This document shows, in pieces, positions 287-24,687 of a stretch of 58,214 nucleotides of DNA (positions are counted from its first letter, which is position 1; each line of letters opens with the position of its first letter). Source of the DNA: Bartonella sp. AU18XJBT (GTDB lineage Bacteria > Pseudomonadota > Alphaproteobacteria > Rhizobiales > Rhizobiaceae); NCBI RefSeq assembly GCF_028618595.1, contig NZ_JAQITE010000012.1:1-58214 (forward strand). The letters run 5' to 3'. Under the pieces are notes generated by a model. It had not been told where the DNA came from. It saw nothing but the letters and a program-made list of their open reading frames with translations, and did not search any database. Made by a program: the position numbers and the translations under genes.

Positions 287-3200
287 TTGGATGTCTTTCC
301 CTATAACGCAGCAGACGGTGGACATGTTAAGGTCACTGATGTTATTTTAAAAACAAAGGGGACTGGAACAGATGAACCAGCTGAGGGCTCTGGCTATACC
401 GATGGTTTTGGAGCATTTTCTAAAGGCTCTAACAGTGTGATTGAGTTGGAAAACACTACTATTAGCGATACGAAAATCGGGCTTACAGCACAAGATGGTG
501 GCGCAATCAGCATGACTGGGGGGATCATCACAGCTTCCAAGGCTGGTGCTCTCTTCGAGAGCAGTAATAGCGACAAAAACAAACTGGAAAATATAACGAT
601 ATCAAGTGGTAAAGACGGTGCACTATTAATCAGTGGAATAGACGCAGATAAAAGTACTGTCACTTTAAAAAATGTAAAAGTGACTCAAGCACAGCACGCC
701 ATAATTGCGGATCATGATTCCACAATAAAAGTTTCTGGCGGATCATTTGAGGCAGAAGGAGACACAATACAAGCCATCAGTGGCAGCAACATTGTTTTAA
801 CTGATGTTAAACAGATTACATCATCTGATTCCAATGGACTCGCAGCAACATCAAACTCCACAATCGTAATGACAGATGGAACCGTAACTGGGAAAAAAAC
901 AGCATTGGCTGCTGCAGACGGCGGACATATTAAGGTCACAGATGTTGCTCTAAAAACAGTAGGAGTAGATGCGCTCACTGAGGGCGCTGGTATTATATAT
1001 GGATTCGGTGCATTCGCAAATGGCAATAACAGTGTAATTGAATTGCTTGGAAAAACGACCATTAGTGATGGTATAATCGGGCTTGAAGCAAAAGATGGTG
1101 GCGCAATAAGCATGGCTGTGGGAACCATTACAGCTTCCAAAGCGGGTGCTGTTTTCTTTAACAGTAAGAGCGACAAAAACAAGCTGGAAAATGTGACGAT
1201 ATCAAGTGCTAAAGACGATGCGCTACTAATCTATGGAATAGACGCAGACAAAAATAGTACAGTCACTTTAAAAAATGTAACAGTAACGCAAGCAAATAGC
1301 GCCATAGTAGCAGAAAATTCTTCTACAGTAACAGTCTATGGCGGATCATTTGATGCAAAAGATTCGACAATAGTTGCTCTAAACGGCGGCAGTGTCATTT
1401 TAACCGATAATACGCAAATTATGTCATCTGAAGACGACGGACTCTATGCACATGACAATGGCACAATCAGCATGACTGGAGGAACCATTAAAGCCTCCTA
1501 TAATGGAGCTGGCTTCGTGAGCAGTGAGAGCGATAAAAACAAACTGGAAAATGTGACAATATCAAGTGCTAAAGACAATGAGCTACTACAATATGGAATA
1601 AAAGCAGACAAAAGTACCGTTGTTTTAAATAATGTAGAAGTGACTCAGGCAGCCGCCAGTATAGTTGCAAATGATCACTCAACAATAACAGTCTCAGGAG
1701 GATCATTTAGTGGACGTGATGTAGGAGGAAGCGCCGAAGCCAGCAGTACGATTATCTTAAAAAACAATGCTAACATTACATCATCTGATGGCGAAGGACT
1801 CCTTGCAGACGGTTCAGGATCTAAGATCATAATGATGGGAGGATCCGTAGCCGCGAACGAAACAGCGTTATTCGCAATCAACGGAGGGCATATTGATGCC
1901 ACAGATGTTGCTTTAACAACAGAGGGAAAAGGAGGCGGTGCATTTGTAAGTGGCGATGACAGTACAATTCAATTGCATGGTGATACAATAATTAATAATA
2001 CTTTGAGCGGACTCGATGCCGTTAATGGTGGTAAAATCATTAGCGAAAACTTATCGATAATCGGTGGTGAAGCAATTGATCAAGGACCCGACAACGAACG
2101 CACTGGTGTATGGACATCGGACTCTGGTAGTGAAGTTAGGTTAATGGGCAAAACAACCATTCAAAATGTCGATGAAGGTTTTTATGCAGACGGTGGAAGT
2201 AAAATCATTAGCGGAGATTTAATTATAACCGGTGGTGAAAGTAAAACAATGACCGTTGGTGTAAACGTTGCGGAGTCTGATAGTGCAATCGAATTAAATG
2301 GTAAAACAATCATTCAAAATTTTGATGTTGGTCTCACAGCAGGGAATAATAGCACGATTAAGATGACGAATGGTTATATTAGAGCAGCGCAGAATGCAAT
2401 AAAAAATAAAATAAATGCAAAAAAAGTTGCACTATGGGCGGCATTTAACGGACATATTGATGTCCAGAATGCTTCTCTAACAGCAGGAGTTTCTGGTTTG
2501 CAATTTATAGCCCTCTATAATATTAAATCAGATGTACTTCAAAAATATCAAAGCAATGAAATCAATTTGACCAATGCAGATGTTCACGCTGAAAATGGTA
2601 CTGGAATTTTTGTTGGAGGTTTCACTAACACAAACATGGAAGATATTCCAACTTTATCAATCGGTACAGTCAATCTCAAAAATTCAGAAATCCATGCTGA
2701 TGTATTGTTAGGAGATGGTCTTTTCGAAGATCCAAAATCTTGGAAAAACGACAATTATTGGGACAGTAAAGATGTTAAAGCGATCTCCAACGGCACCTTC
2801 ACCTTAAGCGCTGATCAGTCTACTTTAGAAGGCAGAGCAAATATTGCTAAAGACAGAAATGTACACTTTGATCTGAAAAACAAGACAACATGGACACTAA
2901 AGACCAGTACAAAAGAAAAAGATGATGATGGCCAACTGATTGATATTGCTCAAAGATCTCGTTCTGATATTTCCACGCTTAATCTCGACAATAGCTCTAT
3001 TATCTTTAATGGACCAACAGAAGAGCATTATCACACATTACATATAGGTTCTGGTAAACCAGACATGCAAGAAGTCTACAACGCAACGGGAGATGCAAAG
3101 ATTTACTTCAATATTGCTTGGAGTGATGGCGTAGCAAGTGCCGATCAAAAAACCGATAAGCTTCTCATTCATGGTGATGTCTCAGGCTCCACAACAGTTT

Positions 3201-4467
3201 ATATCAAAAGCGATTCAGGGAATAACGATAGTGTAGTAAATGCTGCAGATCCTTCGAATATCGGTGGACTTTCGCTTATTCAAGTCTCTGGAAAAGCAGA
3301 AGAAAACTCTTTCAAATTGGCAAATGGCTATACCACAAGAGATCGTTTACCTTATAAATATACACTGACTGCTTATGGACCAGAGTCAAGCCACGGACAG
3401 GCCGATATTGCACAAAGCCTCTTTGATGAAAGAATGAAAATTTCTGGGATTTCCGCTTACACAAAGAAATTCTTGAAACTAGTTCTGGCTCTGGTCCAAG
3501 TGTGGCTACTCTTGTACCATAAACAGCAAGCTATTTGGTTATGCCAAATGCTCTCTTCTACAGTGGATTAACCGATATAGCTAAGCAAGACGAGTTTTTA
3601 GCTAATATGAGAATATCCGCCATAGGACAAGAACAAGGAATAAAGAATGCATTCTTCTTATACACCTATGGAAATACAGGAACTTTATCTTCTGAACGCG
3701 GACCTATCAAATACGGTTACGGTGCTGATATTCGCTATGCTGCTCTCCAAGCCGGTGTTACATTGGCAGCAATTGAAGGGCAAAATACCACAACACATCT
3801 GGGACTGGGGGGAACCTATGGGCAGCTGTCGTTCACACCAAAGGACATGAAAGATGCAGGGAAGAACACGCTGGATAAATGGGCCATTACAGCCTATGGC
3901 AGTATACAGCATAACAGTGGTTTCTACATCGATGCACTCTTGTCCTACGGTATCCTAAAAGGGCATATCACCAATGCCATCAGAGGAAATACAGCAAAGT
4001 TGAACGATGCCAAAATGTTGAGTATCTCCACCACTATTGGCAAAGAATTTGCAACCGGAATGGAAGGTTTAACCTTCGAACCACAAGCACAAATTGCCTA
4101 TCAACATTTGATGTTTAACACCATTGAAGATGCTGATAATTTTACTGTTGATATGAACAATCCTTCTCAATGGTTAATCCGTGTTGGTGGACGTTTGACC
4201 AAAACCATTTCCACTGAAAACAGCCGTCCTATGTCTTTCTATGGGAAAGTAAACTTAATCAAAACTTTTGGTGATGATGGTACCATTCATATTGGTAGAG
4301 ACTTTGACCTTGATCCTATGGGCCCTGCAATTGAAGGCGGCGTTGGCATCAATGCACAACTATCTCACAATTTCTCCCTTCATGGTGATGTAAGCTATCA
4401 ACAAAAGCTTCAGAAAACGGGTATAAGTGGTGCAAGTTTTTCAGGTGGAATACGCTATCAGTTTTAA
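287..4467 (+). pseudogene. 5'-truncated, frameshifted autotransporter (passenger plus barrel)
   Basis: From 287 the frame encodes about 1,000 residues of repetitive parallel beta-helix passenger rich in G-G-x-I, S-T-I and D-G-G turns, but there is no signal peptide and no good start: the first usable codon is TTG in mid-repeat. Around 3410-3435 the frame changes. The block FWDFRL that precedes the barrel in the two intact neighbours is encoded at about 3441-3460 in the other frame, and in that frame a TAA at 3520-3522 replaces the Gln codon seen in LVPQ of the neighbours. From 3523 to 4467 the barrel domain is intact, with the usual YGYGADIRYAALQAG and FGxxGxxxF-like strands and a terminal Phe. 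At least three lesions (5' loss, frameshift, nonsense) mean no secreted product. It may survive as a recombination donor for the neighbouring copies (inference). Confidence 0.88.
308..1920 (+). repeat. imperfect tandem repeats in the autotransporter passenger
   Basis: Three related units are visible in DNA and protein. The block DGGAISMT.G.I.ASKAGA recurs near 493, 1093 and (as DNGTISMTGGTIKASYNG) 1454, each followed by SDKNKLENVTISS. The block ADGGHxKVTDVxLKT occurs near 308 and 914, with a diverged copy near 1879. Units are about 360-600 bp. These are coils of the beta-helix and are good substrates for slippage or unequal recombination. Confidence 0.8.
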
Positions 4468-9527: not shown

Positions 9528-9729
9528 CGTTTTGTTATTTACAATAAAAACATAATGATATAGAAACTAACCGGGTACTTGCGCCATCAGGGGAATGAAG
9601 TAAGCATCAAAGCATACCAAATACTAAAGGCATATCTATGTGTAAGAAATATATTTATAAGAAAAATTTTTTGTTATGTACAATTGCTGGAACTTTCATT
9701 TTTTCTCATTTTACTCCAACTTATGCAAA
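9528..9729 (+). repeat. promoter/signal-peptide module, copy 2
   Basis: Mate of 6347-6548. Only a handful of substitutions are visible (for example GTTTAC/ATTTAC and ACTGACC/ACTAACC in the upstream part), and none were noticed from the start codon to the end of the signal peptide. Confidence 0.92.
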
Positions 9730-12082
9730 GACATCGGCTCCCATAATGATTATGGCTCGTGCGGATAAAGCAGGAGAAGAAAAAACCTTTAATAACGTTT
9801 TTATCCGCGGTGCATATACAACAGTAGTTGCTGATGACAAAGCCTTTATCACCATTACAAACTCAACAATGCGTTCAGACTCAAATTTATTTACCGCAAC
9901 AACAGGTGGACGCATTCATGCTAAAAAAACTGTAGGAAAATCAGATTCCCGTGGTTTAGAAATTTCAAACGGCATCATCCATATTGAAGATTCAATCATA
10001 AATGTTTCCGGACATCACAAAAGTCGTGGTATACTTTTTGATTACATCTCGAGTTCCCAAGTAAAAGAGGGCGAAAAAGTTATCAATAAAGCAATTCTTA
10101 CCAACACAAAACTTCTTGTTGAAAATGGTATTGGTATTCTAGGACCAGATTACGCAAAATCTGTTGCTGTGGTAGAACTTAAAAATTCAGAAATTCGTTC
10201 TGATATATTATTAAAAAATAAAATCCCAGAAAACACAAAAGATACCGATCCTCGCACTTTTATATTAAGCGCTGACAATTCGATTATAGAAGGACGAGGA
10301 AAGACTTTCCCTCAAAATACAACGATTTTTACTCTCAACAATAACAGCAAGTGGTATCTAAAGATTAGTCAATTTGAAGTAGACAAAGAATTTGACAGCT
10401 CCAAAGGATACTTGCTCACTGATATTAAACAACGTGCACAATCAATCGTTTCAGTCTTAAACCTTAATAATAGCTCTATCATATTTAACGCACCACATAA
10501 ACTAGCAGACAATCATTATCAAACCTTGCACGTGGGAAAACAACCAACAGCTGAAGTTGCAAAAGCAGAGCAAAACAGGAGTTCTGATGCAACAACAGTT
10601 TACAATGCATTGGGCAACGCGAGGATTTATTTTAATACCGAATGGAGTAATGGCCTTACAAAAGAACAACAAAAAACTGACCGTGTTCTCGTTCATGGTA
10701 ATGTCTCAGGCACCACAACGGTCTATTTCAACAATCTTTCAAATCCTGCAAAACCATTCAATAATGAAGAAGCAGAAGATTTTATTCCTTTGAATACGCG
10801 TGGTCTCTCACTCATTCAAGTTTCTGGGCAAGCCAATGAAGATTCCTTCAAACTTGCCCATGGCTACACCACAATGGAAGGCTTACCTTATAAATACGTA
10901 CTCAATGGCTATGGACCAACATCCAGCCGTGGGAAAGCCAATAAGGCACAAAGTCATTTAAGCGGAATATCACAAGAATCAAAACAGAAAGACGCGCAAA
11001 ATGCTAATATATCATCCCTTGGAAAAGTAAACAACGGACAAGCCCCCTTAGAAGAAAATGGGAATTTCTGGGATTTCCGCTTGCAGAATGCGGCTCTTGA
11101 TGATGAAGGGAAGATCAAAGCTCTTGTTCCTCAAATGGCAAGCTATTTGGTTATGCATAATGCAATATTTTCCTCTGGCTTGGCTGATATAAATAATCAA
11201 AATACACTGTTAGATAATATGCACTCAACAGTTTTTGGATTAGAAGGCCATAAAAAGAAAGGGGGGTTCTTATCAACTTATGGCAACAAGATGACGTTAT
11301 CTTCCAGCCGTAGTCCATTGGAATATGGTTATGGTGCGGATGTTCGTTATGCTGCTATACAAGCAGGCATGACATTAGCAACATTAGAAAATCAAAATAT
11401 GACCGCGAATCTTGGTCTTTTAGGCACATATGGAAAGCTAGCTTTTACACCAAAGGATATGGAAGGTTCTGACAAAAGCATACTGGATAAATGGTCCTTT
11501 ACGGCATATGGGAACCTCCACTATGACAATGGTCTCTATGTTAATGCACTGGTCTCTTACGGCATTTTAAACGGACATATTACAACAGCCCTTATCGGCA
11601 ACACTACAGAGTTAAATAATACGGATACATTAAATATATCAGCTACCGTTGGACAAAAATTAGCAACTGGTGTTGAAGGGGTGTCCTTTGAACCACAAGC
11701 ACAACTTATTTATCAACATATTGCATTTGGCACTCTTTCAGATATCGATGGCTTCCAGGTTAATATAAAGCCCCCTCATCAATGGTTGGTCCGTATTGGA
11801 GGGCGTTTAACGAAAACAATGCTTCCCATTGAAAAAGATCATGTTCTTTCTTTTTATGGTAAATTGAATGTCATCAAAGCTTTTGGTGAGGAGCGCACTC
11901 TCGATGTTATTGAATCTTTCCATCTCGATTCTATGGGCTCTTCACTTGAAGGTGGGCTTGGCATTAACGCGCAGCTTTCTAAAAACATCGCACTTCATGC
12001 TGACGTTAATTACCAACATAAACTTCAAAAAGCTGGTATCTCTGGAATTAATTTTTCCGGTGGAATGCGTTATCGCTTTTAG
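9638..12082 (+). CDS. autotransporter with beta-helix passenger (paralogue of 6457-8964)
   Basis: 814 residues, same architecture as its upstream neighbour: identical signal peptide, beta-helix passenger from about 31 to 470, FWDFRLQNAALDDEGKIKAL linker beginning at about 477, then the barrel ending RYRF. The passenger differs clearly from its neighbour over residues 31-250 while the conserved block LIQVSGQANEDSFKLAHGYT and the barrel stay close. This is the pattern expected if the exposed tip diversifies and the export module is conserved. It has its own promoter module and a hairpin after the stop. No lesions seen. Confidence 0.9.
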   Translation: MCKKYIYKKNFLLCTIAGTFIFSHFTPTYAKTSAPIMIMARADKAGEEKTFNNVFIRGAYTTVVADDKAFITITNSTMRSDSNLFTATTGGRIHAKKTVGKSDSRGLEISNGIIHIEDSIINVSGHHKSRGILFDYISSSQVKEGEKVINKAILTNTKLLVENGIGILGPDYAKSVAVVELKNSEIRSDILLKNKIPENTKDTDPRTFILSADNSIIEGRGKTFPQNTTIFTLNNNSKWYLKISQFEVDKEFDSSKGYLLTDIKQRAQSIVSVLNLNNSSIIFNAPHKLADNHYQTLHVGKQPTAEVAKAEQNRSSDATTVYNALGNARIYFNTEWSNGLTKEQQKTDRVLVHGNVSGTTTVYFNNLSNPAKPFNNEEAEDFIPLNTRGLSLIQVSGQANEDSFKLAHGYTTMEGLPYKYVLNGYGPTSSRGKANKAQSHLSGISQESKQKDAQNANISSLGKVNNGQAPLEENGNFWDFRLQNAALDDEGKIKALVPQMASYLVMHNAIFSSGLADINNQNTLLDNMHSTVFGLEGHKKKGGFLSTYGNKMTLSSSRSPLEYGYGADVRYAAIQAGMTLATLENQNMTANLGLLGTYGKLAFTPKDMEGSDKSILDKWSFTAYGNLHYDNGLYVNALVSYGILNGHITTALIGNTTELNNTDTLNISATVGQKLATGVEGVSFEPQAQLIYQHIAFGTLSDIDGFQVNIKPPHQWLVRIGGRLTKTMLPIEKDHVLSFYGKLNVIKAFGEERTLDVIESFHLDSMGSSLEGGLGINAQLSKNIALHADVNYQHKLQKAGISGINFSGGMRYRF

Positions 12083-12110: not shown

Positions 12111-12140
12111 AGCAGCGCTGAGATGAAAACAGTGCTGCTT
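12111..12140 (+). terminator. probable terminator hairpin
   Basis: AGCAGCGCTG/CAGTGCTGCT with a nine-base loop and one G-T pair. The following T-run is weak (TATATTTTA), so termination may be inefficient. Confidence 0.55.
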
Positions 12141-12226
12141 ATATTTTACCGTATTACAAAAACCATAGTGTGTCAAAAAGTGATTCATTTTTAGCAAAAA
12201 AAGAAAATATCTTAAGGAACATCTCT

Positions 12227-14245
12227 ATGCATAAGAATCTTTTGTTATGTACAGCCGCTTGTGCTTTGTTTTTTTCTTCTTTTAACTTCACATCTACCAG
12301 TACCGCCTCTGGTCTAAGCCCTCAAGCACGCCATAACCTTGGAGAGATTACGAAATTACCTGAACAATATCGCCATGCCATTGATTTAATAAACACACCA
12401 ACACAAGCAGAAAAAAATCTTGAGAAGATAGTCTCTGGCGCCATGATGAGAGATAATTCGCACTTCAACCAAGCACTTCAAAATCATATGGATCGTGTAA
12501 GAGATACGATTAACAGCTCTTTTGCAGGTGCAAATCGTTATGGTTCAGGAGCATATATGAACGTGATGAACCGTGAAATGGATCATATACGTGCCCAAGC
12601 CATGGCTAACAAACGCCAACAAGATATGCAACACATGATGCAAGCCAATGCCTATCTTGACCAATTACGTCAAAACCGATTGACAAAGGCAGAAAATTTA
12701 TTACGCGGCTACGAGAAAGCGGTTTCCGATGCAGCACAGGCGGCAGCAATCCTTGATGCCGATAACCAACGGCGTATTGATGCTGCGCACCAACAATGGG
12801 TGAGGCAAGACAAGCGTAATTGATCTGAACTGCAAAATAAAGCAGAAATATTACATAAAGAAGTACAAGTGGATAGTACCTTACAAGGACAAAACAAAGA
12901 ACTTTCCAATACTTTACGCAAAGCAGTATTAGAGACTTTGAACACCGATGGAATAAGCAACGTGGAGAAAAAAGGAGAGACATCCCCTCCTCTATCTGAA
13001 GAGAATAAACAACCTCTTATTAACTCCAGCACAAAGCAAAGACACACTAGTGATAAATTATCACCTGCTAATGTTGCAACGCAACACAAGAACAATTCAT
13101 CCTCAAGAGCAGATCGTGGAATTATACAATCTAAAATAAATGAAAATTCGCAATCTGATATTGATCCCCAAACAAACACCACTTTCTCAGCCTCGAAAAC
13201 GACTCTTAATACATCCGCAAAAGTTAGGAGAATCGCTACCGCTGATATCGAGAGCACCTCTAAACTTACAGATAATGAAGCAACCGCAACTTCTGCTTCT
13301 TTTGATTTGGCAGAAAAAAGAACAATTCTTAAGCCACAAAAAGAAAGTTCTTTAGTCATGCCTATCGCGATGTTTGCTGTTGGGTTTTCTGATGTCAACA
13401 ATCAAAATATCTTGTTAGACAATATGCAAATAACAATGTTTGAACCAAAAGATCATCCAGAGAGAAGCGTTTTCTTATCCTCTTATGGTAATAAGAGTAC
13501 CTTTTCATCTAAGGTTCAAGCAGATATTCGCTATGCTGCATTGCAAGCAGGGGCAACATTAATAGCGCTAAACAATCAAAATATCAGCAGCAATTTTGGT
13601 CTTTTCGGAACATATGGGAAATTGTCTTTTACTCCTAAAAATAAGAAGAGCTTTCAAAAAAATATGTTTGATAAATGGTCACTCACCGCATATGGAAATA
13701 TTCAGCATGACAGTGGCATCTATGCAAGTGCATTTCTCTCTTATGGAATTTTCAAAGAAAATAACACCACAGTTCTCATCAAACATACCTCAAAAGTGAA
13801 GAATCATAAAACATTAGGATCCGCTGCAACTATTGGTCAAAAACTGTCAACCAGTTTGGAAGGTGTAATCCTAGAACCGCAAGCACAACTTGTTTATCAA
13901 CGTCTCATGCTTAGCTCTTCCTCAGATAGTAGATCTTTTTCAGATGACAATAATTCTAAAATAGACATCAGCAAACCTCATCAATGGTTGCTCCGTATTG
14001 GCGGACGTTTGACGCAAAACAAAGGCCATGCCCTTTCCTTCTACGGCAAACTAAACGCGATCAAAACTTTTAGTAACAACTTTCCTCTTGCAGCTATAGG
14101 CTCTCTAATAGACGGTGGTTTTGGTATTCATGCGCACTTATCGCAAAATATCGAGCTTCATAGTGATCTCAGCTATCAACATAAATTCAAAAAAGCTGGC
14201 ATATCTGCAATAAATATTGCCGCCGGAATGCGCTATCACTTTTAA
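12227..14245 (+). pseudogene. chimeric autotransporter: phage-virion-like passenger plus barrel, interrupted by TGA
   Basis: The start at 12227 is chosen over the upstream in-frame GTG because AAGGA lies 9 bases before it and a signal peptide (NLLLCTAACALFFSSF) begins there. The passenger is not a beta-helix. It is helical and contains DRVRDTINSSFAGANRYGSG followed by AYMNVMNREMDHIRAQAMAN, which closely resembles the R-x-T-x-x-S-T-F-x-x-x-G-R-x-G-S-G-A signature of structural proteins of podovirus-like phages. The frame stops at TGA 12821-12823 after 198 residues, but the same frame stays open from 12824 to 14245, through a Ser/Thr/Asn-rich linker and a complete barrel (VMPIAMFAVGFSDVNNQNIL to RYHF). 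One base change, such as CGA to TGA, explains the break. Whether read-through occurs is unknown; without it only a secreted soluble fragment would be made. The usual FWDFRL linker is absent. Confidence 0.75.
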
Positions 14246-14376: not shown

Positions 14377-17300
14377 ATGAAAAAAAATATTTTACTATAC
14401 ACAGTTTCTGGACTTCTGTTTTATTCTACCACCAGCTTATCTTATGGTATTTATAGTAATGATAATTACCTTTATAATTATTATAGTTATAATGGTAATT
14501 ATGGTGATGCGGATGATTATAGTGGTCAGTATGATTATAGTCGTGATAATCCCCCGCCTCCGCCAGCAGGTTATGACCTAACGGGGGTATCTCCAAATCT
14601 TCCTCGTCGTGGAAAGCTAGATCTATCCAAAGTTTCTGATCCATATGGTGGATTGGGAAACTCCTTCAACATACCTCAAAATCCTCCAGCCCCTAACTCT
14701 AAAGTTTCCACTTTCTCTACAACATCTGTCCCCACACAAACAACCACAAGCCCTTCTCCTACAGGGGGTACATCTACAGCATCTAATCCTACAGGGACTA
14801 AACCTCCCCAAACACAAAGTAGAGAAAATTCAAGAAGTGATACAGGCTTTACTGAGGGAACGACGCATTCTTCAACGCGCACCCAACCATCTGAGCAACC
14901 TACTACAAAGCCTAAAACCCCTGCAGGCGCTTCTGAAAGCTCTAGAGAAAAAACGCCATCCCCAACTTTAACAAATGAAGCTGTAACTTCTCCCGCGGAA
15001 CAAAAGCCTGAGCCTAATCGAGAAGGTACACAGAAATCAAAGACTAAAGCGACAGAAAGTGTACAATTTGACCCTACAGCCACACAAAACACGGTTACAC
15101 AATCTCCATCGACAGGAATGATTCCAACGAGAGGAGAGTCTCCAACAATAGAGACAACTTCAACAACAGGAATGGAAGCAAAATCGAGAAGACGTTCAGG
15201 TGTTTCCGAGTCTTCTGCAGACTCTTCCAGCGAAATAACTTCACCGAATTCTGCTGTATCTTCACAGTCAGAAACAACACAACCTGCACCCAATTCACAG
15301 TCAACACCTGCAAACTCTGTCCCTACAAAATCGGAATCTATACAACCAACAACAGAAGTACCACCAAAGCCTAAAGAATCAGAACTGACACAGTCAATAT
15401 CTGTAAGACCAGTAGCTGAAAAACCAGAGCAATCACCGATACCAAAATCTGTACAATCAACGTCTGTGCAATCTGCATCTACACAAGAAGTATCTGAAAA
15501 ATCTAAACCTACAAAACCGGCTTCTGAAAAAACAACAACAAAACTATCGTCAACGCCTAAAGAACCAGAACCGGGGCAGAAAATACTTTTAAGACCAGAA
15601 GCGAATACACAAAAAGTATCTAAAAACTCTGTATCTCAAAAGCCAGAATCTACAAGACCAACAGCAGAGCAATCACCAACGCCTAATGCATCAGAGCCTT
15701 CATCAATATCTGCAAGGCCAGCGGCTGGAAAACCAACATCACAGGGTACATCAGAATCTGTAAAACCAGCGCCCATGCAATCTGCATCTGCACACAAAAT
15801 ATCTGAAAAATCAGAGCTTGCACAACCAACATCCCCCATCAAACAGCCTGAAAATCCTGTGCAAATCAAAGATATCAGTACCCGAGTTGAGGCTCAAAAC
15901 GGTAGAACTGTAACTGTGCATAACCAAAAAATTCAAGACAAATGGAGTGCTATCGATGCAGAGGGGAATAATTCAAAAATCCAAATGAGTGGAGGAACCG
16001 TTGAGGCTGGTTTTATTGCATTGAGTGTCTCAGATGGTGGAGTGATTGATGCCACAGATATTACGGTAACAGCAGAAACAGCTGGTTTGGTCAACATAGA
16101 AGGGACAATCAATCTTAAAGATTCAAGCATCCATGTCACAGGAGAATTTGAAGCGAATGGTATTATTTTCCGCAATAACCCATATCATACCCCTCGAAAA
16201 CGATATCCACGCAGTGCTGAAAGAAATACCAAAGCCGTTCAAGAACAAGATATTGCCGGTAAAGTAAATCTAGAGAATACAAAACTTTTCGTTGAGCAAG
16301 GGATTGGTATCAACCTTTATGGAACAAATACAAACGGTATCGTCAGCCTTAAAAATTCAAAAATTAATGCTGATGTTTTGTTAAAAAATATAAAAAATGA
16401 ACGCGAATCCACAAACACTCTTACACTGATTGCGGATCACTCTTCTTTAGAAGGTCGAGTAAGAACTTCTAAAGATAATAGAACAATTTTTGATCTAAAA
16501 GAAGAGACGAAATGGCTCTTAAAGCCAAATAAAAACGCCATAAATAATGATAATGTCTCAGATGACGATACTGTTTTAGATGACTATGGACAGTTTGGTC
16601 TTGATGAAAAATCATTCTCTAATCTTTCTGTATTGCGCCTTACAAACAGTGCCATTATGTTTGAGAAGCCCGTTGAGGGACATTACCAAACTTTGTTTAT
16701 AGGGACTAATCTTTCGCAAGAAGACGAAACAGTTCACACAGTAGCAGTTTATAGTGCAACAGGTGCTGCAGAAATTTATGTAAACACTCAATGGAACAAA
16801 CATTCTCCTGTTACGGAACAACAAACCGACCGTATTGTGATTAATGGAGATGTCTTAGGGAATACTGTTGTTCACATCAATCTCCAAGAAACAGATAAAA
16901 AAATAACTGATAGCTCTGCTGTTTGGGGAGAACACATGGCGTCACTTCCTTTAGGGACACATGGGGTTTCAATCATTCAAGTTTCCGGACAAGCAAACGA
17001 AAATTCCTTCAGGTTAGCAGGAAACTATATGACAATAGGTGGACAACCTTATAAATATGTACTCACAAGCTATAAACCAGGAACATCTCATGAGAGCCAA
17101 AATCTTTTTGGCAAAAATAATCGTGATTTCTGGGATTTCCGCTTACAGAATGCCTACATTGATAAGGATAAAAAAGTTCGAGCACTTTTACCACAGGTGG
17201 CAAACTATTTAACCCTGCCTAATGCTTTATTTTCTTCTGGATTTGCTGATGTAAATAACCAAAACACGTTGTTAGACGCAATGCAAACAACAGTATTTGG

Positions 17301-18144
17301 CGCAAAAGATAATAAAAAGAATAACTTCTTTTTCTCTTCATACGGCGAGAAAGTCGCCTTATCTTCCAACCGCGGCCCATTGCGTTATGGTTATGATGCT
17401 GATGTAAACTATAGCGCTTTACAATTGGGAACCGTATTAGCCGCCTTTGAAGGCAAAGACATAAGCACACATTTTGGTCTGTTAGGAACCTACGGAAAAC
17501 TTGCCTTTACGCCAAAAGAGATGCAGGATTCTGAAAAGACGACCCTTGATAAATGGTCACTCACCGCTTATAGCGGCATCCAGCATAGCAATGGTCTATA
17601 TGTCAATGCTCTTCTTTCTTACGGAACCTTAAAAGGAAATATTACCACAGCTCTGGTTGGGAATGCCGCAAATTTGGATGGGACTGAAATCCTTAATCTA
17701 TCCGCAACCCTTGGTCAGAAATTAGCAACCGATACAAAAGGATTGGTCTTTGAACCACAAGTGCAATTCATTTATCAAAATCTCATGTTTGATATTTTCT
17801 CAGATACCAATGGCTTAAAAGTAGACATGAGCAATCCGCATCAATGGTTGGTTCGTTTTGGTGGACGTTTAACAAAAACGATAACGGCTGTTGAAAAAAA
17901 CAAGGCTGTTTCCTTCTATAGCAAAATGAATGTTATCAGAACTTTTGGTGATGGTAAAACAATAAAAATTGCTGATACCTTTGATCTTGATCCTACCGGC
18001 TCTTCAATTGAGGGAGGCATGGGTGTGAATGCTTATTTTTCTGAAAATGTCGTGCTAAGCGGTGATATTAGTTACCGGCAAAAACTGCAAAAAGCTGGTG
18101 TATCGGGGACCAATGTATCTGGCGGAATACGGTATCGTTTTTAA
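14377..18144 (+). CDS. large autotransporter with Pro/Ser/Thr-rich stalk
   Basis: 1255 residues. The signal peptide covers 1-24 (NILLYTVSGLLFYSTTSLSYG). A Tyr/Asn/Asp-rich segment follows (about 25-60, with NYYSYNGNYGDADD), then PPPPP and a Pro/Ser/Thr/Lys/Glu-rich low-complexity region to about residue 495, built from loose repeats of the type KPxSEKSxPTQPxS. A beta-helix passenger runs from about 500 to 915, FWDFRLQNAY starts near 918, and the barrel ends RYRF. The Pro-rich region replaces nothing in the paralogues; it is an insertion between signal peptide and beta-helix and would form an extended stalk at the distal end or be removed. The reading frame is intact over 3.7 kb. Its 5' region is unlike the promoter module of the two genes upstream. 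Confidence 0.9.
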   Translation: MKKNILLYTVSGLLFYSTTSLSYGIYSNDNYLYNYYSYNGNYGDADDYSGQYDYSRDNPPPPPAGYDLTGVSPNLPRRGKLDLSKVSDPYGGLGNSFNIPQNPPAPNSKVSTFSTTSVPTQTTTSPSPTGGTSTASNPTGTKPPQTQSRENSRSDTGFTEGTTHSSTRTQPSEQPTTKPKTPAGASESSREKTPSPTLTNEAVTSPAEQKPEPNREGTQKSKTKATESVQFDPTATQNTVTQSPSTGMIPTRGESPTIETTSTTGMEAKSRRRSGVSESSADSSSEITSPNSAVSSQSETTQPAPNSQSTPANSVPTKSESIQPTTEVPPKPKESELTQSISVRPVAEKPEQSPIPKSVQSTSVQSASTQEVSEKSKPTKPASEKTTTKLSSTPKEPEPGQKILLRPEANTQKVSKNSVSQKPESTRPTAEQSPTPNASEPSSISARPAAGKPTSQGTSESVKPAPMQSASAHKISEKSELAQPTSPIKQPENPVQIKDISTRVEAQNGRTVTVHNQKIQDKWSAIDAEGNNSKIQMSGGTVEAGFIALSVSDGGVIDATDITVTAETAGLVNIEGTINLKDSSIHVTGEFEANGIIFRNNPYHTPRKRYPRSAERNTKAVQEQDIAGKVNLENTKLFVEQGIGINLYGTNTNGIVSLKNSKINADVLLKNIKNERESTNTLTLIADHSSLEGRVRTSKDNRTIFDLKEETKWLLKPNKNAINNDNVSDDDTVLDDYGQFGLDEKSFSNLSVLRLTNSAIMFEKPVEGHYQTLFIGTNLSQEDETVHTVAVYSATGAAEIYVNTQWNKHSPVTEQQTDRIVINGDVLGNTVVHINLQETDKKITDSSAVWGEHMASLPLGTHGVSIIQVSGQANENSFRLAGNYMTIGGQPYKYVLTSYKPGTSHESQNLFGKNNRDFWDFRLQNAYIDKDKKVRALLPQVANYLTLPNALFSSGFADVNNQNTLLDAMQTTVFGAKDNKKNNFFFSSYGEKVALSSNRGPLRYGYDADVNYSALQLGTVLAAFEGKDISTHFGLLGTYGKLAFTPKEMQDSEKTTLDKWSLTAYSGIQHSNGLYVNALLSYGTLKGNITTALVGNAANLDGTEILNLSATLGQKLATDTKGLVFEPQVQFIYQNLMFDIFSDTNGLKVDMSNPHQWLVRFGGRLTKTITAVEKNKAVSFYSKMNVIRTFGDGKTIKIADTFDLDPTGSSIEGGMGVNAYFSENVVLSGDISYRQKLQKAGVSGTNVSGGIRYRF
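14554..15860 (+). repeat. low-complexity Pro/Ser/Thr-coding tract
   Basis: About 1.3 kb coding for short degenerate motifs (ESxQPT, KPxEQSP, SVQSAS, ISEKSEL). DNA repeats such as ACAAAATCTGTAC-type units are imperfect, so the tract is old or under amino-acid rather than nucleotide constraint. Confidence 0.75.
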
Positions 18145-18173
18145 AGAAAAAACACTTTTAACTTCAATTAAAT

Positions 18174-18202
18174 AAAAAAGCAGCACGTTGTGCTGCTTTT
18201 TT
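18174..18202 (+). terminator. rho-independent terminator closing the autotransporter array
   Basis: AGCAGCAC/GTGCTGCT (18179-18186 with 18190-18197), GTT loop, T-run after it. The stem core matches the terminator at 4514-4532. Confidence 0.85.
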
Positions 18203-18324
18203 ATTTAATTGTATATTTTTAAAATTCTCAAAAGTCATTACATCATCAAATAACATATTTATTTATAATGATTTTTTATCTATTGAATAAAAACTGAATA
18301 CCATCGCATTCTCTCATTCCCCCT

Positions 18325-18559
18325 CCATGCATAAAGTTTTATGTCTTACTCCACACTTCAAGCGATGATGTTTTTACAGCACAACAGAATAAGCATTCAT
18401 GCGGATTTAAAAAAAAGTCAGCCCCTTCTTCGCTGTAGACGCTCCATTTATTTTAGATGATGTGCATTTAATATACCTGCTATAAAAACTTGGTATCTGT
18501 TATAAATTATTAAAGGCATGTTTTCCCTCTAAAATCTCAATGCTACACCACCTCCCTCA
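18325..18559 (+). repeat. upstream part of a long repeat shared with 33703-33960
   Basis: The segment with AGCGATGATGTTTTTACAGC, then GCATTCATGCGGATTTAA, then ACTTGGTATCTGTTATAAAT is found in the same order at 33703-33960, and in both places runs directly into an integrase relic. The two loci therefore share about 0.8 kb. Confidence 0.85.
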
Positions 18560-19190
18560 TAAGATAACACATTGATCTATAAAGAGTGTTCATTGTTTTG
18601 CTTGTAAAATGAAAATCCAAAATAGCGTAAGATTCTTTCATTTCAGACCTGTTCCATGTTGAATCAACCAAAATCATGTCTCTTGCAAGTTACAAGCGGA
18701 AAGAGCCATTGCGGATAAAAACTATTAAGAAAAGATTAAAAATGCCTCTAATGAGCCGTCTCAAGTGCCAAGGGCTGTAGCAACATTGGGAGCAAACAAA
18801 GAATATGACAATATCAACTGACTCTTTTATTAAGCATAAAGATGGTCGCACCCCATAGATTTTATATTATTTCCATGGGGACTTTATTATTATACCATTC
18901 ACAAATTCCGTTGCATCAGAGATGTCGTTGCTCCCCATAAACACCATCACGAAATAGGCTTGAGAGCCTAGATATTTCTTAAAAACAAGGGCGTGAATTA
19001 GGAATAAAAAATCCATTCTATTTTGAGTAATTTTTCGTGCATGAAGGGCATGCCCCCAGTAAAAAACACAATAAAAAAGCGTGAAGAAAGACCTAATCTT
19101 TCATTATTTAACATGATAGTGCTTTAGATGCTTTTGAAAAACATAAAGCTAAATTAAAGAATGGTGGTATAGAAGGAAGCTGATTTCTAG
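18560..19190 (+). pseudogene. decayed P4-type integrase, N-terminal half
   Basis: Starts with the leader (TGTCTCTTGCAAGTTACAAG) and continues through remnants that can be matched by eye to the copy at 34 kb: EIGLRA-like, REL-like, HEGHAP-like, and AFEKHKAKLKNGG near 19125-19165. A local duplication or insertion near 18850-18930 is unique to this copy. All frames are broken. Confidence 0.65.
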
Positions 19191-19513
19191 CCCCTTTATT
19201 CTTTCCTAATAAGATCGCCTCCCTCAACTAAAAAAGAAGCGCCCTATTAACTCAGTCTGCAAACAATGCTCTGTAAATAGCCCGCCTTCTCTTAGTCCTC
19301 TTCCAGCTAGCTTCCCACAGCATGCGGTTCACATCACCACACCTTAAACGACATTGTTTTAAGAACAGCGTTTTACAGTACAACAGGATAATAATTTAAA
19401 TACCCAAATGCGCTTAAAACATGTCTACTCACTAAACGCACTATTTATCCAAATCAACTGCTCTACCTAATCATTGTCATCACTTAAAACAGCCAATATT
19501 TATCAGATTTGAA
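19191..19513. other. intergenic repeat debris
   Basis: Contains a degenerate block (TCTGCAAACAATGCTCTGTAAA) related to 26870 and 27990, then TTTTACAGTACAACAGGATAA, related to 18375, 22050 and 33760. No gene. Confidence 0.5.
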
Positions 19514-19918
19514 TCATTCCTCTATTTCTTTCGCGCGTCCAGATAATTGCATAGCTCTAGAAAGATCATTAACTGCATTTAAATGTGTTTGAAGTAATTC
19601 ACTATTACGCTGTAATTTTTCTTGTAAATCAGATAGCAAACTTTCAACCTCATGTTCAATATCTTGATTCATGTAGCGCTTCACATCACTCATGGATTTA
19701 TTAAGATCACGCAAACCACGTATTTTACGCAAATTTATTTCTTCGTAATCTGGAATACCACTGCTCTCTAGCATATTGCTTTCATAATCAACAACTTGAG
19801 CTAATCCTTTAACAGCAGCGACAAATTTTGTCATCGCCCAATCACGATCAATAAGGTTGTTATCAAGAACTTTTGCTTTTGCTGCAAAACTATCATCACC
19901 ATATTGCACTACAGACAT
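19514..19918 (-). CDS. hypothetical coiled-coil protein, 134 residues
   Basis: I chose the ATG at 19918, preceded by GAAGGGGAAG seven to eight bases upstream, over the longer frame from 20047, whose extra 43 residues are Cys-rich and unlike the rest. The protein is acidic and strongly helical: heptad-like runs from about residue 60 to the end (LRDLNKSMSDVKRYMNQDIE, VESLLSDLQEKLQRNSELL), with no signal peptide and no membrane segment. I do not recognise the family. Size and heptads would suit a chaperone or phage accessory protein, but nothing supports either. It stands alone between mobile-element relics, and its clean frame in decayed surroundings suggests it is maintained. Confidence 0.7.
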   Translation of the reverse strand: MSVVQYGDDSFAAKAKVLDNNLIDRDWAMTKFVAAVKGLAQVVDYESNMLESSGIPDYEEINLRKIRGLRDLNKSMSDVKRYMNQDIEHEVESLLSDLQEKLQRNSELLQTHLNAVNDLSRAMQLSGRAKEIEE

Positions 19919-20689
19919 TTTTACTTCCCCTTCAACACTATTGTTCAATCTTACTTTCAAATGAGGGAGATTAAACAGGTTCTCTACAATGCTGATACAC
20001 TCAACCAAGCTCGTGGTGCAAACATCGCTCAAACAACAGCACGACACTCCTTCAAAGCGTATACCACTTCAACTTTCAACACATTCTCTCAAATATTTTT
20101 CTTGCTTTGCTCCAAAACCATCATTGCGGCTATACTAATTCACCAAAACGCTATAAACTTAAACCTTACGCAGCAATATCGAAAATTCTACATTTGCTCT
20201 GTCTATTTCGCCTTGCCGATTTGATCTTGTCCTATTTTATCACCAGCACGCCTTCCACAGAAAACAACAACGCTCTCACGAGAACTTTGGCCATAAAAAG
20301 ACCACTTGCTGACAAAAACCCGCAGCATATAAAGACTTAAGCCCATTAAAAATTTCAGCATTTTACCGATAGCAGCATTTTACCCTCCATAATTTATGGC
20401 TTTCTCTGCACCTAAACTTGCATACCTTCTGGCACCCCATAAGATGGCACCCTACAAAATTAGCGTGCACCCATCCAAAAAGGCACACCCTCCCCCATGC
20501 TCTTTCTGCACGCATGCAGTATCTCGCATAAGATACGAAAAGAATGCTCTTTCGAACAGATCAGCCATACAGCAATATTAAAAAAGACATCTTACAATAG
20601 CTAAACAGCCATCGATCTCCCTTTTTTAAATTATCATTCGCTTTTCTTTGCAATGAATGACTATATAAGATTTTTTGAACCTTTTCAAG
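19919..20689. other. intergenic, no gene supported
   Basis: Short open frames (19904-20224, 20396-20581) lack ribosome sites and have biased, Thr/His/Pro-rich translations that look accidental. Confidence 0.5.
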
Positions 20690-21130
20690 AGTTTCTTAGC
20701 CAATCAGTTCGATACGTCTTCAATCGCATATTCACGCGCTTGTTTTAAAGAAACATCTCTTAAGTGTACCCAAGCCTATTTCGCGCGTCCACCCATGAAT
20801 GGTATAATGATAAATCTCCCATGACATGTATAAAATCCTTTGAGCACTTTCCATCTTTACGCGTAATAAAAGAAGCAAGCCAGCACCATCACATATTTTG
20901 CTAGCCCCTCATGTTGCGATATCCTTGGCATTTGAATGCGGTTCAAAAAGCATGCCTTTCTTATACAGTTTCTCTCCACATGGATCCCCCCACTTGTAAG
21001 TGCAAAAGACATGATTTTGATTGATTCAACCTAGAACAAATTTGGAATGGAAAAATGCATCGGTATTCAGGGCTATAATTCAAGTTGAATAACGATAGAT
21101 TATCATTATAAATCAAAATATTATCCAATG
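20690..21130 (-). pseudogene. decayed integrase N-terminal fragment with leader
   Basis: Minus-strand copy. The segment for LKQAREYAIED is readable near 20720-20750, then LRDVSL-like at 20745-20765, and G-L-L-L-L-R-V-K-M-like near 20850-20890. The leader ends near 21100 in the AACGATAGATTATCATTATA block that also ends the 4590-5340 copy. Confidence 0.6.
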
Positions 21131-21399
21131 CATAATGCTTAACGCTCCCCACATTGATATTTTCAGAATTTTCACTGCATCTTCCTATAGATTATTTCAC
21201 TCCATAACACAGTTTGCTCTTAATATCGCAGCTTTACATGTGCTACTAGTATAAAAACAGAGAAAACCAATCATTTTATAATAAAGGTACAATTTTTGTT
21301 ACGAACTTTCCCTCATTTCCAATCTTCTAAATGCGGCTATTCTCTTTCATACTCATCACATTTCAAATCTATTCTATGTGGAATAAATTAAAATCACTT

Positions 21400-21740
21400 T
21401 CTCGCACATCACAAACAACGCCCTGATGTGTTGATAAAATACACTGAAAGAAAAATGCCTCTTATGAACCCTCTCAAATGCTAAGGGCTATAGTAAACAT
21501 TAGAAGAAATCGTACGATGACCGTGACTTGCTCTTTCATAAGTGTAAAGATGGCAGCATTCTATAGATTTTTATATTATTTCACGAAAGCTTTACCGTTA
21601 TATTATTCAAATTTACCTTTATACCATTTACGAGTATCATCATAAACTGTCTGCGTGTGCGTTGAGAGATATTTCTTTAAAACAAGTACATAAATATGCA
21701 ATAAAAATATATTAATATACAACATAAGTATATTTCGTTT
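21400..21740 (+). pseudogene. decayed integrase N-terminal fragment
   Basis: Plus strand, starting 270 bp beyond the minus-strand copy and pointing away from it. CTTGCTCTTTCATAAGTGTA (LLFHKCK) and GTTGAGAGATATTTCTTTAA (LRDISL) are the best-preserved pieces. An internal duplication of TTTATATTATTTCAC-like sequence interrupts it. Confidence 0.55.
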
Positions 21741-22277
21741 GGAACGTTCTATTCTTTTGTGCAAAAACATGTCCCATTAGAGCAGCATTAACCAATCTTG
21801 CTATAAGATGAACGATCAGAAAACATTTTTGTCTTCCTCCGCTCACCTTAAAGAACCAAGATCTTAACTCAATCGGCTCTGTACGCAGTCCGAATTTTTG
21901 TCAAATGATCTTCTCTTGACTTTCCACTCATGTGATTCACTTAAACGAAAACGCAACAAATAAACCTATGAATATTCATCACACACTAAAAAATACTTAA
22001 ACGTTCCAAGAAAACTTATGCCTTATATTACCGCTATAAATGACAGTGTTTTATAGCATCACAGGATAAAAAAGTTTTCTGCAACACAAAACCTACAAAA
22101 CCAATGAATATCCCCTTTAAAACTTTCTTTTTTAGGATTCACAGTGCTCTAATTCCTCAAGCCTTTATAAAAAAGAGCGATTTTAAGCTTGCTGAATGTA
22201 TTGTATCAGCATATATTACAGATTGTAACATATTGTTATTCATAAAATCACCTCAAAAAGAACAGAAAGAGGTTTTT
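21741..22277. other. intergenic repeat debris
   Basis: The stretch around 21940-22080 (AATATTCATCACACACTAAA, then TTTTATAGCATCACAGGATA) has a relative at 42690-42800, where the same blocks occur in the same order. Confidence 0.6.
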
Positions 22278-22376
22278 ATGGCTGATCTCGTAAAAGCCGC
22301 TATGCTTTATTCAACCTTGATTATCACCATCAATGCTTTTGTTGTTATTTTAGTTCTCGTAATAGAAATATACTAA
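22278..22376 (+). CDS. possible 32-residue single-span membrane protein
   Basis: The ATG at 22278 has AAAGAGG seven bases upstream, one of the better ribosome sites in this region. The product begins MADLVKAAMLYSTLIITI and continues as one hydrophobic helix to its acidic end (VIEIY). No family recognised; too short to exclude chance. Confidence 0.4.
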   Translation: MADLVKAAMLYSTLIITINAFVVILVLVIEIY

Positions 22377-22699
22377 GCATACTCTTGTGGCTTTTTGTAA
22401 TCTACGCAAATGAGCATCTTAATTTCACATAAGATCAAAGAAAAATTTTAATTCTACAGATAAATCACACACCCAATTTCAAACATCTCTTGCGACTATT
22501 TGAGTGTTAACTCTGCTTTTTATATGCATTTTGAACCATCAGTGTCCGCCTTTTCACGCTTCCTTCAATCTCAACTTCATTCCCACCTTAAAAACTAAAT
22601 TTTCTACCAAATCCAATCTGTAAATAATTTGTCTCCTTATTGAGTAAGTCCTCTTGCTTCCCCCCTTCAGTGTATATCACAATTTTAAAGGATAATATT

Positions 22700-23000
22700 T
22701 CATGAAGCTTATGATAAATCTATTGAACACCATCTTTACCCTTATGAGAAAATAAACCAGCATCATCACACATTTTTCCAGCCCCAAATGTTATAACAAC
22801 CTTTAGCACTTGAGATCGTTCATAAGAGGCATTTTTACTTCTTTCTTCAACAGTTTTTACCACACGGCTCTCCGTGCTTGTAACGTGCAAGCAGATGGTT
22901 TTAATTGATTCAACCTAGAACAGATTTTGACGAGATCATCGTTCAACAAAAAATAATTAATTTATTTTTATAAATCAAAGTGTTATTAAAAAAACATTCA
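22700..23000 (-). pseudogene. decayed integrase leader and extreme N-terminus
   Basis: Only the 5' part is left: minus-strand LLVYFLIR-like codons near 22760, then the leader with TGTAACGTGCAAGCAG (reverse of the CTTGCACGTTACA block) near 22880. It ends near 22985 in the usual TTTATAAATCAAAGTGTTAT-like edge. Confidence 0.55.
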
Positions 23001-23538
23001 TCACACACTCGAAAACAAAAAGCATCTCATATGCAAAGTTTTACATAAGCTCCACTGCTCAAAATGATAATATTACGGCACAATTAAGATAAAACATAAC
23101 AAGGGAAAATCTTGCAAACTCAGAAAAGAGAGGGGAAAAATGAAAAGGTGTGGAGAGCGCTTACCTCCTCACACATCCAGCAAAACCGTCCTAGCAAAAC
23201 TGCCTCACATCTTAACTAATGCTATAATATTCTCAAATCAAAATCAATTTTTTAAAAATAGTTTGAGAAAAATATTTGAGTATAAAACGATAATAATTCC
23301 ATTTAGAATGTTTTTTTCTTTATTAAAACAGAAAAAAGTAATTTCCAAACAAATATTTCCTCTCAATTTTTCCGAAATTAGCCACAATGCTTAAAGCCGG
23401 TCTTAGTGTGATGAAACATTTATTTATGATAAAGGCAGAAAAACACCCCAAAGGTAGATTTAATCTCATGTTTTAAATACATGCAACCAAAACATTAAAC
23501 AATCAGCGCATAATTTGAAAAATTAGCAATAATACGTA
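23001..23538. other. intergenic, one doubtful reading frame
   Basis: A frame at 23140-23394 has a good ribosome site (GAGAGGGG) but its 84-residue product is Lys/Phe/Ile-rich with no recognisable feature, so I did not call it. Confidence 0.4.
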
Positions 23539-23679
23539 GCAACTCATTCGGATGCAATACTATCACAATTGAAAGCACTTTTTGGCTAGACAAATGACAG
23601 TATAGCATCCGTTTACACAAAGAGTACAGATCGTAAACGGCTAATTCTTGAAGCCATCAAAAGACTCTCTAAAAGTTAG
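23539..23679 (+). pseudogene. C-terminal relic of a second tyrosine recombinase
   Basis: The plus frame reads ATHSDAILSQLKALFG, a TAG at 23587 where Trp would fit, then TNDSIASVYTKSTDRKRL and EAIKRLSKS before a stop. The block V-Y-T-K-x-x-D-R-K-R-L with an upstream G-x-x-x-x-S-I/M is the C-terminal end of many phage-type integrases, with Tyr as the nucleophile. It differs from the P4-type relics elsewhere in this window, so two kinds of integrating element have been here. Confidence 0.5.
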
Positions 23680-23683
23680 AGAG
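23665..23683 (-). terminator. possible terminator of the eexN-like operon
   Basis: Perfect 8-bp stem CTCTCTAA/TTAGAGAG with a 3-base loop, 45 bp after the last stop on the minus strand, followed there by TCTTTT. Confidence 0.4.
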
Positions 23684-23727
23684 ATCCTAAAAAGCGTAAT
23701 AGAATCAATTTATTGAATTGTATGTTT

Positions 23728-23946
23728 TTAATTAATGCCAAACATAAGTTCCATATACGCTTGTCTGGCATGTTGACAATTTTTAGATTTTTCCATAGAG
23801 GATGGATCCAGCTTTTCACATTTTTTTACCCACTCTTCGAGTAATTTTTTATCTTTCTTGAATTCCGCTGCGCTGTAAGTTTTTTCGCAACCAGAAACGC
23901 CAAGTCCAGTACAAACCAGCAATACTGCGATAATAACTTTATTCAT
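23728..23946 (-). CDS. EexN-family lipoprotein (entry-exclusion-like)
   Basis: 72 residues: a lipoprotein signal peptide with lipobox VSGC (Cys20), then CEKTYSAAEFKKDKKLLEEW and a second Cys in the WVKKCEKL segment. The C-E-K-T-Y-S-x-x-E-F-x-K-D-x-x-L-x-x-W core is the hallmark of EexN proteins, which sit in the membrane of conjugation-competent cells and block uptake of the same element. The stop of the upstream paralogue is 3 bases from this ATG, so the two are co-transcribed. No conjugation machinery is in the window, so the present role is open. Paralogue of the next two entries. Confidence 0.8.
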   Translation of the reverse strand: MNKVIIAVLLVCTGLGVSGCEKTYSAAEFKKDKKLLEEWVKKCEKLDPSSMEKSKNCQHARQAYMELMFGIN

Positions 23947-23949
23947 GAT

Positions 23950-24219
23950 TTAATTCCCTTCCTTTTTATCTTCAGTTTTTTTCTCGTCATCATGTACAAA
24001 GCTCGCACCAGGCCAATCTCGGGCATGAACTTCACGATACGCTTTATCTGCGTTTTTACAATTTTGAGAATCTAAATTCCCTGATATCATACATTTCATT
24101 GCCCATTGCTCGAGCAATTTAGGATCTTTCTTAAACTCTGCTACGCTATAGGTTTTTTCGCAACCAGCAAGGATAAGTCCAGTACAAACCAGCAATGCTG
24201 TGATAATGACTTTATTCAT
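23950..24219 (-). CDS. EexN-family lipoprotein, longer paralogue
   Basis: 89 residues, lipobox LAGC (Cys20), core CEKTYSVAEFKKDPKLLEQW, second Cys at KCMIS, a third near NCKNADKAYRE. It differs from its neighbour by a charged C-terminal extension (DDEKKTEDKKEG). Ribosome site GGGGAA lies before the ATG. First gene of the two-gene unit. Confidence 0.8.
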   Translation of the reverse strand: MNKVIITALLVCTGLILAGCEKTYSVAEFKKDPKLLEQWAMKCMISGNLDSQNCKNADKAYREVHARDWPGASFVHDDEKKTEDKKEGN

Positions 24220-24398
24220 AAATAAATTCCCCTTTTTTCAAATTTACAAAGTTTAGGACACAATTTAGGGTCCCATTAAATTTGTACATTCAGTTCATTG
24301 TGTATTTTCAAAAATTTTAACATCGACTTCTGTACGCATTTTTTCCAACCTATGATGATAAATCGCGTACAAAGAAAAACACCGCTATCAATATATTT

Positions 24399-24687
24399 TT
24401 ATGATTTAATCCTGCTTTTTTCAGTTTCATTCCCCTTTTTGCCACTTTCACGAAGTTCCTTTGCAAAATTTCTATAATGCTCTTGAAAAAGTTCCATATC
24501 GGCTTGCATGACATTTTGACAATTCTTGGTTGCAAAAGCAGAGATCCCCATTTTATCGCATTTCTTTCCCCATTCTTGCATCAATTTTTTATCTTTCTTA
24601 AATTCCTCAACACTGTAGTTTTTTTCGTGAACCAACAGTAACAAGCCCCGTGCAAAGCAACAGCACTGTTATAATGATCTTGTTCAT
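24399..24687 (-). pseudogene. frameshifted third eexN copy without its lipobox cysteine
   Basis: From the ATG at 24687 the frame reads MNKIIITVLLLCTGLVTVG, the same signal peptide as the two downstream copies, but then runs into SRKKLQC and a stop. After one extra base near 24628 the EKNYSVEEFKKDKKLMQEW core continues in the next frame to 24399. The lipobox Cys codon is lost at the same place. The rest of the domain is intact, so the break is recent. Confidence 0.75.

Follow-up and report, generated by a model that had tools for sequence, protein, structure and literature searches.

Type Va autotransporters, which combine a signal peptide, a passenger, a linker and a C-terminal PF03797 beta-barrel and may be encoded in tandem arrays, are among the closest described counterparts of the gene examined here. 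This gene lies in such an array in Bartonella sp. AU18XJBT (NCBI RefSeq assembly GCF_028618595.1), on a stretch of 58,214 nucleotides (contig NZ_JAQITE010000012.1, positions 1 to 58,214 of the forward strand), hereafter the window, which corresponds to contig C24 in an assembly of 161 contigs and 2.39 Mb. Unlike type Va autotransporters, including its array neighbours, the window gene and its family have a helical passenger that is phage-derived and contains a cassette exchanged with prophages; intact array neighbours possess an AC_1 autochaperone domain, whereas the window gene has none.

Several other described systems resemble parts of this gene. The proteins of PHROG 4287, found in Bartonella prophages, the Bartonella gene transfer agent (BaGTA) and Rhizobium phage RHph_Y1_10, share with the passenger about 170 homologous residues and common cassette alleles, but the autotransporter is without their N-terminus and their C-terminal hydrophobic or S74 part and has an export signal and a barrel instead. 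Ejection proteins of short-tailed phages are described as leaving the virion to form a channel in the envelope, with T7 gp14, the smallest, going to the outer membrane (PMC8954989). Two envelope proteins, SieA of phage P22 and CwpV of Clostridioides difficile, stop phage after adsorption: SieA blocks P22 DNA injection, with escape by changes in gp16 and gp20 (PMC10883804), and CwpV is a variable surface protein of five types (PMC4737114). Their likeness to the present family depends on the function proposed below, and neither is built from the phage's own ejection protein. Cassette-switching antigens, such as Msp2 of Anaplasma, likewise have a variable segment between conserved flanks that is replaced by recombination, although their donors are silent antigen-gene copies and not, as here, virion-type prophage genes. 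In the portions of the literature accessible to our search, with subscription papers and preprints lying outside it, no description of a fusion between an autotransporter and an ejection protein was found; the relevant phage-derived passage in PMC2275737 concerns holins, and further background is provided in parts of PMC6899734 and PMC11466379.

Judged by homology, the passenger of the window gene is a piece of an ejection-module protein (PHROG 4287) of Bartonella podovirus-like prophages. The first-pass annotation of the window, made from the sequence alone, had proposed that a phage gene segment lies between a signal peptide and an export barrel, and had pointed to two sequence motifs, which are indeed present in frame in a passenger region of helical appearance. 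For residues 25-198, which it singled out for a profile search, residues 28-194 of the first open reading frame (ORF1) match PHROG 4287, annotated as "DNA ejection protein", at 4.9e-11. The same family is matched by the proteins P0121 (8.6e-15), P0136 (4.8e-8) and P0142 (1e-7) and by a prophage protein (6.4e-36), and a tblastn search reaches RHph_Y1_10 (4e-13) in a gene directly upstream of two annotated putative injection proteins. The genome itself encodes three passenger homologues, on C105 (46% identity, 1.3e-44), C75 (37%, 2.0e-31) and C81 (32%, 3.3e-24). The likeness thus extends well beyond Bartonella autotransporters, and a chance resemblance between helices is ruled out by these E-values and alignments, because PHROG 4287, RHph_Y1_10 and the three paralogues in the same genome all match strongly. 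Four other passenger ORFs of the array matched no phage family when tested. The relatives of PHROG 4287 comprise 118 proteins (one being window ORF1), of which the named ones are mostly from Bartonella, with a few from other Rhizobiales; in IMG/VR, 132 contigs were matched by one pattern and 80 kept. Compared with the phage proteins, the autotransporter retains phage residues ~45-230, without the phage N-terminus (about 53 residues) and the phage C-terminal part.

Structural comparison adds little to this assignment. An AlphaFold2 model of the prophage protein is mostly helical and weak (predicted local distance difference test score, pLDDT, 57.8; predicted template modelling score, pTM, 0.39), and found no PDB match under 0.001. 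Searched against BFVD, the model gave 11 matches under 0.001, to uncultured Caudovirales or nameless proteins, which carry little weight at template modelling scores to the query of 0.28-0.45. Sequence searches of solved structures returned weak matches to helical proteins alone (best E 0.088).

The fusion is widespread in the genus. Among 71 genomes, with each species of the collection represented once, at least 19 hold both a phage-type passenger and a barrel, as seen in the stretches fetched, and 18 of these 19, the window being the exception, have an uninterrupted stop-to-stop frame of 578-868 residues (that of G018 is longer and has masked bases). Intact orthologues present a signal peptide (recognized by eye and hydropathy), the phage piece, the linker and the barrel in a single frame, and residues 4-18 of the signal peptide are nearly invariant among 32 aligned orthologues. 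A protein search yielded 50 clusters, and all 46 named ones are from Bartonella, including B. tribocorum, B. grahamii, B. rattimassiliensis, B. queenslandensis, B. fuyuanensis and B. massiliensis. An assembly artefact is ruled out by the single open passenger-barrel frame in the 18 other species genomes and the 50 protein clusters, and the single frame of the orthologues likewise excludes two separate genes. The passenger piece stands in a broken frame in G009 and G049. Among 60 genomes drawn from other genera of the same family no fusion was found; three had phage-type matches and one a weak barrel match.

The barrels form a single lineage. As the first-pass annotation had stated, the window barrel belongs to the autotransporters (Pfam Autotransporter PF03797, 1.1e-13; NCBIfam TIGR01414, 2.9e-21). 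In a quick tree, the 20 phage-passenger barrels (19 collection genomes and B. gabonensis) group in a single clade separate from 44 other array barrels, with a support of 100 in the SH-like approximate likelihood ratio test; in the same tree, the barrels of the downstream neighbour share one clade in each of the 13 loci included, and those of the upstream neighbour do so in 14 of 17. Simple pairwise counts over 13 pairs of autotransporters gave ratios of nonsynonymous to synonymous change (dN/dS) of 0.19-0.33 in the barrel, 0.17-0.78 in the N flank of the cassette for 11 of 13 pairs (about 1 or above in the other two), 0.21-0.34 in the C flank for six of the seven pairs measured, and 0.32-1.22 in the cassette (12 pairs measured). 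Values near or above 1 occur in two of 13 linker and two of 12 cassette comparisons, the rest being lower.

A stretch of ~52 residues inside the passenger exists as discrete types, here named and classed A to E by us, and one prophage protein lineage shows the same types. With 24 autotransporter and 46 phage cassettes placed in one tree, at least four label changes on starred branches are required, and a single autotransporter cassette clade is rejected in the approximately unbiased test (p-AU 1.6e-57, log-likelihood difference 145; 69 columns, several long branches). The clearest case is P0136 (Bartonella sp. AA97HXZ), which, compared with P0121, has 98.8% identity in the 84 residues preceding the cassette, 28.8% in the 52 cassette residues and 99.6% in 513 aligned residues after it, a 7-residue indel aside; over 58 residues its cassette shares 94.8% identity with the L079 prophage protein. 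Among 17 cassettes carried on near-identical autotransporter backbones, the five of type C are nested within the phage C clade (100/100), and monophyly of the 17 is rejected (p-AU 0.007). The five C carriers are scattered over a tree of 16 barrels (four changes, shuffled mean 4.5), and P0128 with cassette A shares the same barrel with P0136, which has cassette C. Ordinary divergence of the cassette is ruled out by the contrast between P0136 and P0121 and by this scatter of C alleles.

Phage capture and repeated cassette exchange with prophages are thus documented as far as sequence comparison reaches, and, beyond what the first-pass annotation had considered, the barrels are one lineage while the passenger cassette has been repeatedly exchanged. 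Because the cassettes concerned nest within phage allele clades, the recent, best-resolved swaps went from phage to autotransporter, while the reverse direction is possible elsewhere. The best phage match of 66 autotransporter units (49 distinct) is at least 85% identical for two, 70-85% for eight, 60-70% for 16 and 45-60% for 24; many exchanges are old or their donors unsampled. A further cassette type, 35-40% identical to known phage alleles, is seen in P0143-P0148 and P0150 and perhaps represents an unsampled phage allele.

Several autotransporters carry more than one cassette. The G069 protein, which matches P0169 of B. vinsonii at 100% identity across 361 residues, has four in tandem: unit one shares 90% identity with phage allele D (54% with the best other autotransporter), unit two comes closest to B, unit three to E and unit four to A or E. 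This copy may be silent, because its conserved start lies in another frame and the annotation of P0169 omits that start. One A-like and one B-like unit occur in MM73XJBT (P0142), and two units each in G027, G018, G051 and G011, some of them far from the phage alleles seen.

On the phage side, variability of the segment is a property of the mirrored lineage, that is, the prophage lineage sharing these types. Its 31 distinct proteins have a mean identity of 53.9% in the cassette and of 68.9 and 81.4% in the flanks. For the second prophage lineage and BaGTA, 20 stretches each were chosen from listings and the copy of the present genome was added, with the N flank counted from residue 50; the corresponding values are 91.8% against 86.2 and 88.5% in the second prophage lineage (19 distinct) and 87.8% against 70.4 and 78.9% in BaGTA (21). 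The dN/dS of the cassette in the mirrored lineage is 0.11 within alleles (120 pairs) and 0.57 between them (345 pairs); the two remaining lineages have 0.07 and 0.09 (210 pairs each). In the N flank, dN/dS likewise rises between alleles, from 0.18 to 0.32. Because the classes are conserved inside and divergent between, the cassette of the mirrored lineage appears specificity-like, in the pattern expected of a specificity determinant.

The donor family was also sought in the genome itself and occurs there in prophage-type clusters. The homologues on C105 and C75 sit in podovirus-like structural clusters, and the genes of the C105 prophage encode, in order, 485, 141, 294 (the passenger homologue), 505 and 729 residues, followed by a lysozyme-like gene (by eye). 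The C81 cluster is probably the BaGTA locus, as its gene sizes and order roughly fit the gene table in the available part of PMC3610622. By role, the order in C105 is that of genes 14, 7, 20 and 16 in P22 and 13, 14, 15 and 16 in T7; phrog_770 is common to P22 gp16 and the third gene of RHph_Y1_10. Because this order agrees with P22 and T7, the donor homologue is by place a gp7/gp14-like first ejection protein, standing after a gene of ~140-150 residues and before two larger ones, and, from its family name, the PHROG 4287 protein would be contained in the virion and ejected into the cell. Unlike this agreement in position, sequence homology of the donor protein to P22 gp7 or T7 gp14 was not detected. 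Transmembrane helices do not stand out clearly in the family, the best 19-residue hydropathy in 10 phage proteins ranging from 0.47 to 1.40 and the structure model being of low confidence. In all three clusters of this genome, a gene of ~141-160 residues (L006 3112-3537 and relatives) directly precedes the ejection-type gene, at the place of T7 gene 13 and P22 gene 14. The BaGTA-type gene (L008 3779-4918) ends in a C-terminal S74 chaperone domain.

As to function, our preferred reading, held tentatively and at somewhat short of an even chance, is that the displayed passenger acts as an anti-phage decoy through allele-matched interference with DNA ejection, a form of superinfection exclusion. 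From the architecture, the barrel would expose the phage-derived piece on the outside of the cell. Once a short-tailed phage has docked and its ejection proteins enter the envelope, this exposed piece would bind the incoming protein or its partners via the cassette and spoil assembly of the ejection channel. Since such contact would depend on the allele, phages could escape by changing the cassette, and cells could catch up by acquiring the new cassette through recombination with a phage genome or by stacking several cassettes. The wider proposition, that Bartonella keeps a protein-level surface record of phages, made of allele-specific ejection-protein pieces that are updated by recombination, stacked in tandem and block ejection by phages of matching allele, with phages diversifying the segment in turn, is in our judgement doubtful, if by no means far-fetched.

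A number of observations weigh against such interference with ejection. The window copy carries an in-frame stop, in G069 (the four-cassette form), G049 and G040 the conserved start does not share the frame of the remaining gene, and 11 of the 50 protein clusters have lost every cassette in frame (P0157-P0163, P0165-P0168). The autotransporter allele is not associated with that of the resident prophage (three of 14 match, 4.4 expected), and 16 of the 66 autotransporter units are less than 45% identical to any phage allele seen. On the phage side, the C-terminal end of the mirrored-lineage protein, which is missing from the autotransporter, falls to 46-48% identity in its last windows and is thus as variable as the cassette. 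Comparison by hhalign with single sequences linked the phage protein to neither P22 gp7 nor T7 gp14 (probability 0.2 and 0.1), and PMC10883804 reports no evidence for gp7 in exclusion and presents it as varying little, unlike the protein here. PADLOC produced no convincing match, the best being 0.0057 (PglZ) on window ORF1, with none for P0121, P0136 and P0003. Of the cassette losses, five aligned examples share nearly the same junction.

The same architecture would also suit antigenic variation, in which the passenger serves as a surface antigen or adhesin during the blood stage and the prophages as a library of variable segments moved in by recombination. We regard this as unlikely, though it has real points in its favour: a variable cassette swapped by recombination between conserved flanks recalls Msp2 of Anaplasma, the signal-peptide stretch contains a T-run both in the window gene and in G040, frequent intragenomic recombination of virulence genes and contingency loci based on repeats are described for Bartonella (PMC11466379), and PMC2697382 describes, in B. 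grahamii, islands holding autotransporters and phage genes within a zone that is amplified and packaged into gene-transfer-agent particles. This packaging offers a route for exchange. What antigenic variation leaves unexplained is why the donor phage protein has discrete alleles while its sister lineages keep the segment conserved, and why several phage-like cassettes are stacked in one protein.

The stop, the out-of-frame starts and the cassette losses in part of the copies, together with dN/dS values near or above 1 in the few N-flank, linker and cassette comparisons given above (two of 13, two of 13 and two of 12), would fit a chance fusion of no adaptive role that recombines with similar prophage DNA and is now decaying. 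Against this reading stand the low ratios of the N flank in 11 of 13 pairs and of the C flank in six of seven, the persistence of open frames in many species and the confinement of variability to the mirrored prophage lineage, and we consider it quite improbable. It is more improbable still that phage or gene-transfer-agent particles dock or start ejection at the displayed homologue, with phages adopting the host-matching cassette: shared alleles would also result, and selection against a receptor would account for cassette losses and broken copies, but several stacked alleles would open the host to more phages, and the best-resolved recent cases nest in phage clades, indicating movement from phage to host. 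A host surface protein rebuilt again and again from a virion-type gene would represent a new use of phage genes and possibly a form of envelope immunity that carries its own supply of updates. The envelope contacts of the small ejection protein in short-tailed phages also become a testable question, because a segment of 52 residues seems to have been singled out by selection. In Bartonella, the family links prophages, the gene transfer agent and autotransporter islands.

The layout of the window gene and its neighbours is given in Table 1.

Table 1. Features of the phage-passenger autotransporter gene and its array neighbours, in window coordinates.
Feature	Positions	Strand	Basis
Putative signal peptide	12227..12310	+	Hydrophobic stretch (measured on three orthologues); end set by eye
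Passenger, homologue of phage ejection protein	12308..12820	+	PHROG 4287, 4.9e-11; alignments to phage-type genes of the same genome
Hypervariable cassette, residues 85-136	12479..12634	+	A-like: 62% to phage allele A, 82% in first half
In-frame TGA closing ORF1	12821..12823	+	Same frame stays open to 14245
Linker, same frame	12824..13345	+	Homologous to linkers of intact orthologues
Autotransporter beta-barrel, including stop	13346..14245	+	Pfam PF03797, 1.1e-13; in clade with 19 other phage-passenger barrels
Upstream neighbour autotransporter	9638..12082	+	Barrel; no phage family matched
Downstream neighbour autotransporter	14377..18144	+	Barrel; no phage family matched

The window gene consists of two open stretches in one frame (12122-12823 and 12824-14245) with a single TGA between them, and a genome search likewise places one TGA within its match to an intact orthologue. 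The first-pass description of a single autotransporter therefore holds for passenger and barrel sharing one frame and fails for their continuity; because this TGA parts the passenger from the barrel, the window copy looks broken and is probably inactive. Its T-run spans 12280-12300, within the signal-peptide coding stretch, and G040 has one too. For the copies of G040, G069 and G049, ON/OFF switching or decay is possible, because their conserved start is out of frame.

A phage tail fragment that had been reported at the other end of the array did not reappear: 16 of the 21 ORFs of at least 60 amino acids starting at 19514-27616 were scanned and matched no structural phage family, and blastn of 18150-26100 against phage records was empty, shorter or broken remnants being possible. 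A second array autotransporter also looks broken, its beta-helix passenger ORF (287-3571) being overlapped in another frame by its barrel (3535-4467), and one TAA lies inside the barrel match of this 287-4467 autotransporter. Further along the window, at 25753-26609, a ParA-like partition ATPase (positions 226-471 of 500 of phrog_164) adjoins a weak match to an Arc-like repressor, and this segment is possibly a plasmid or phage remnant.
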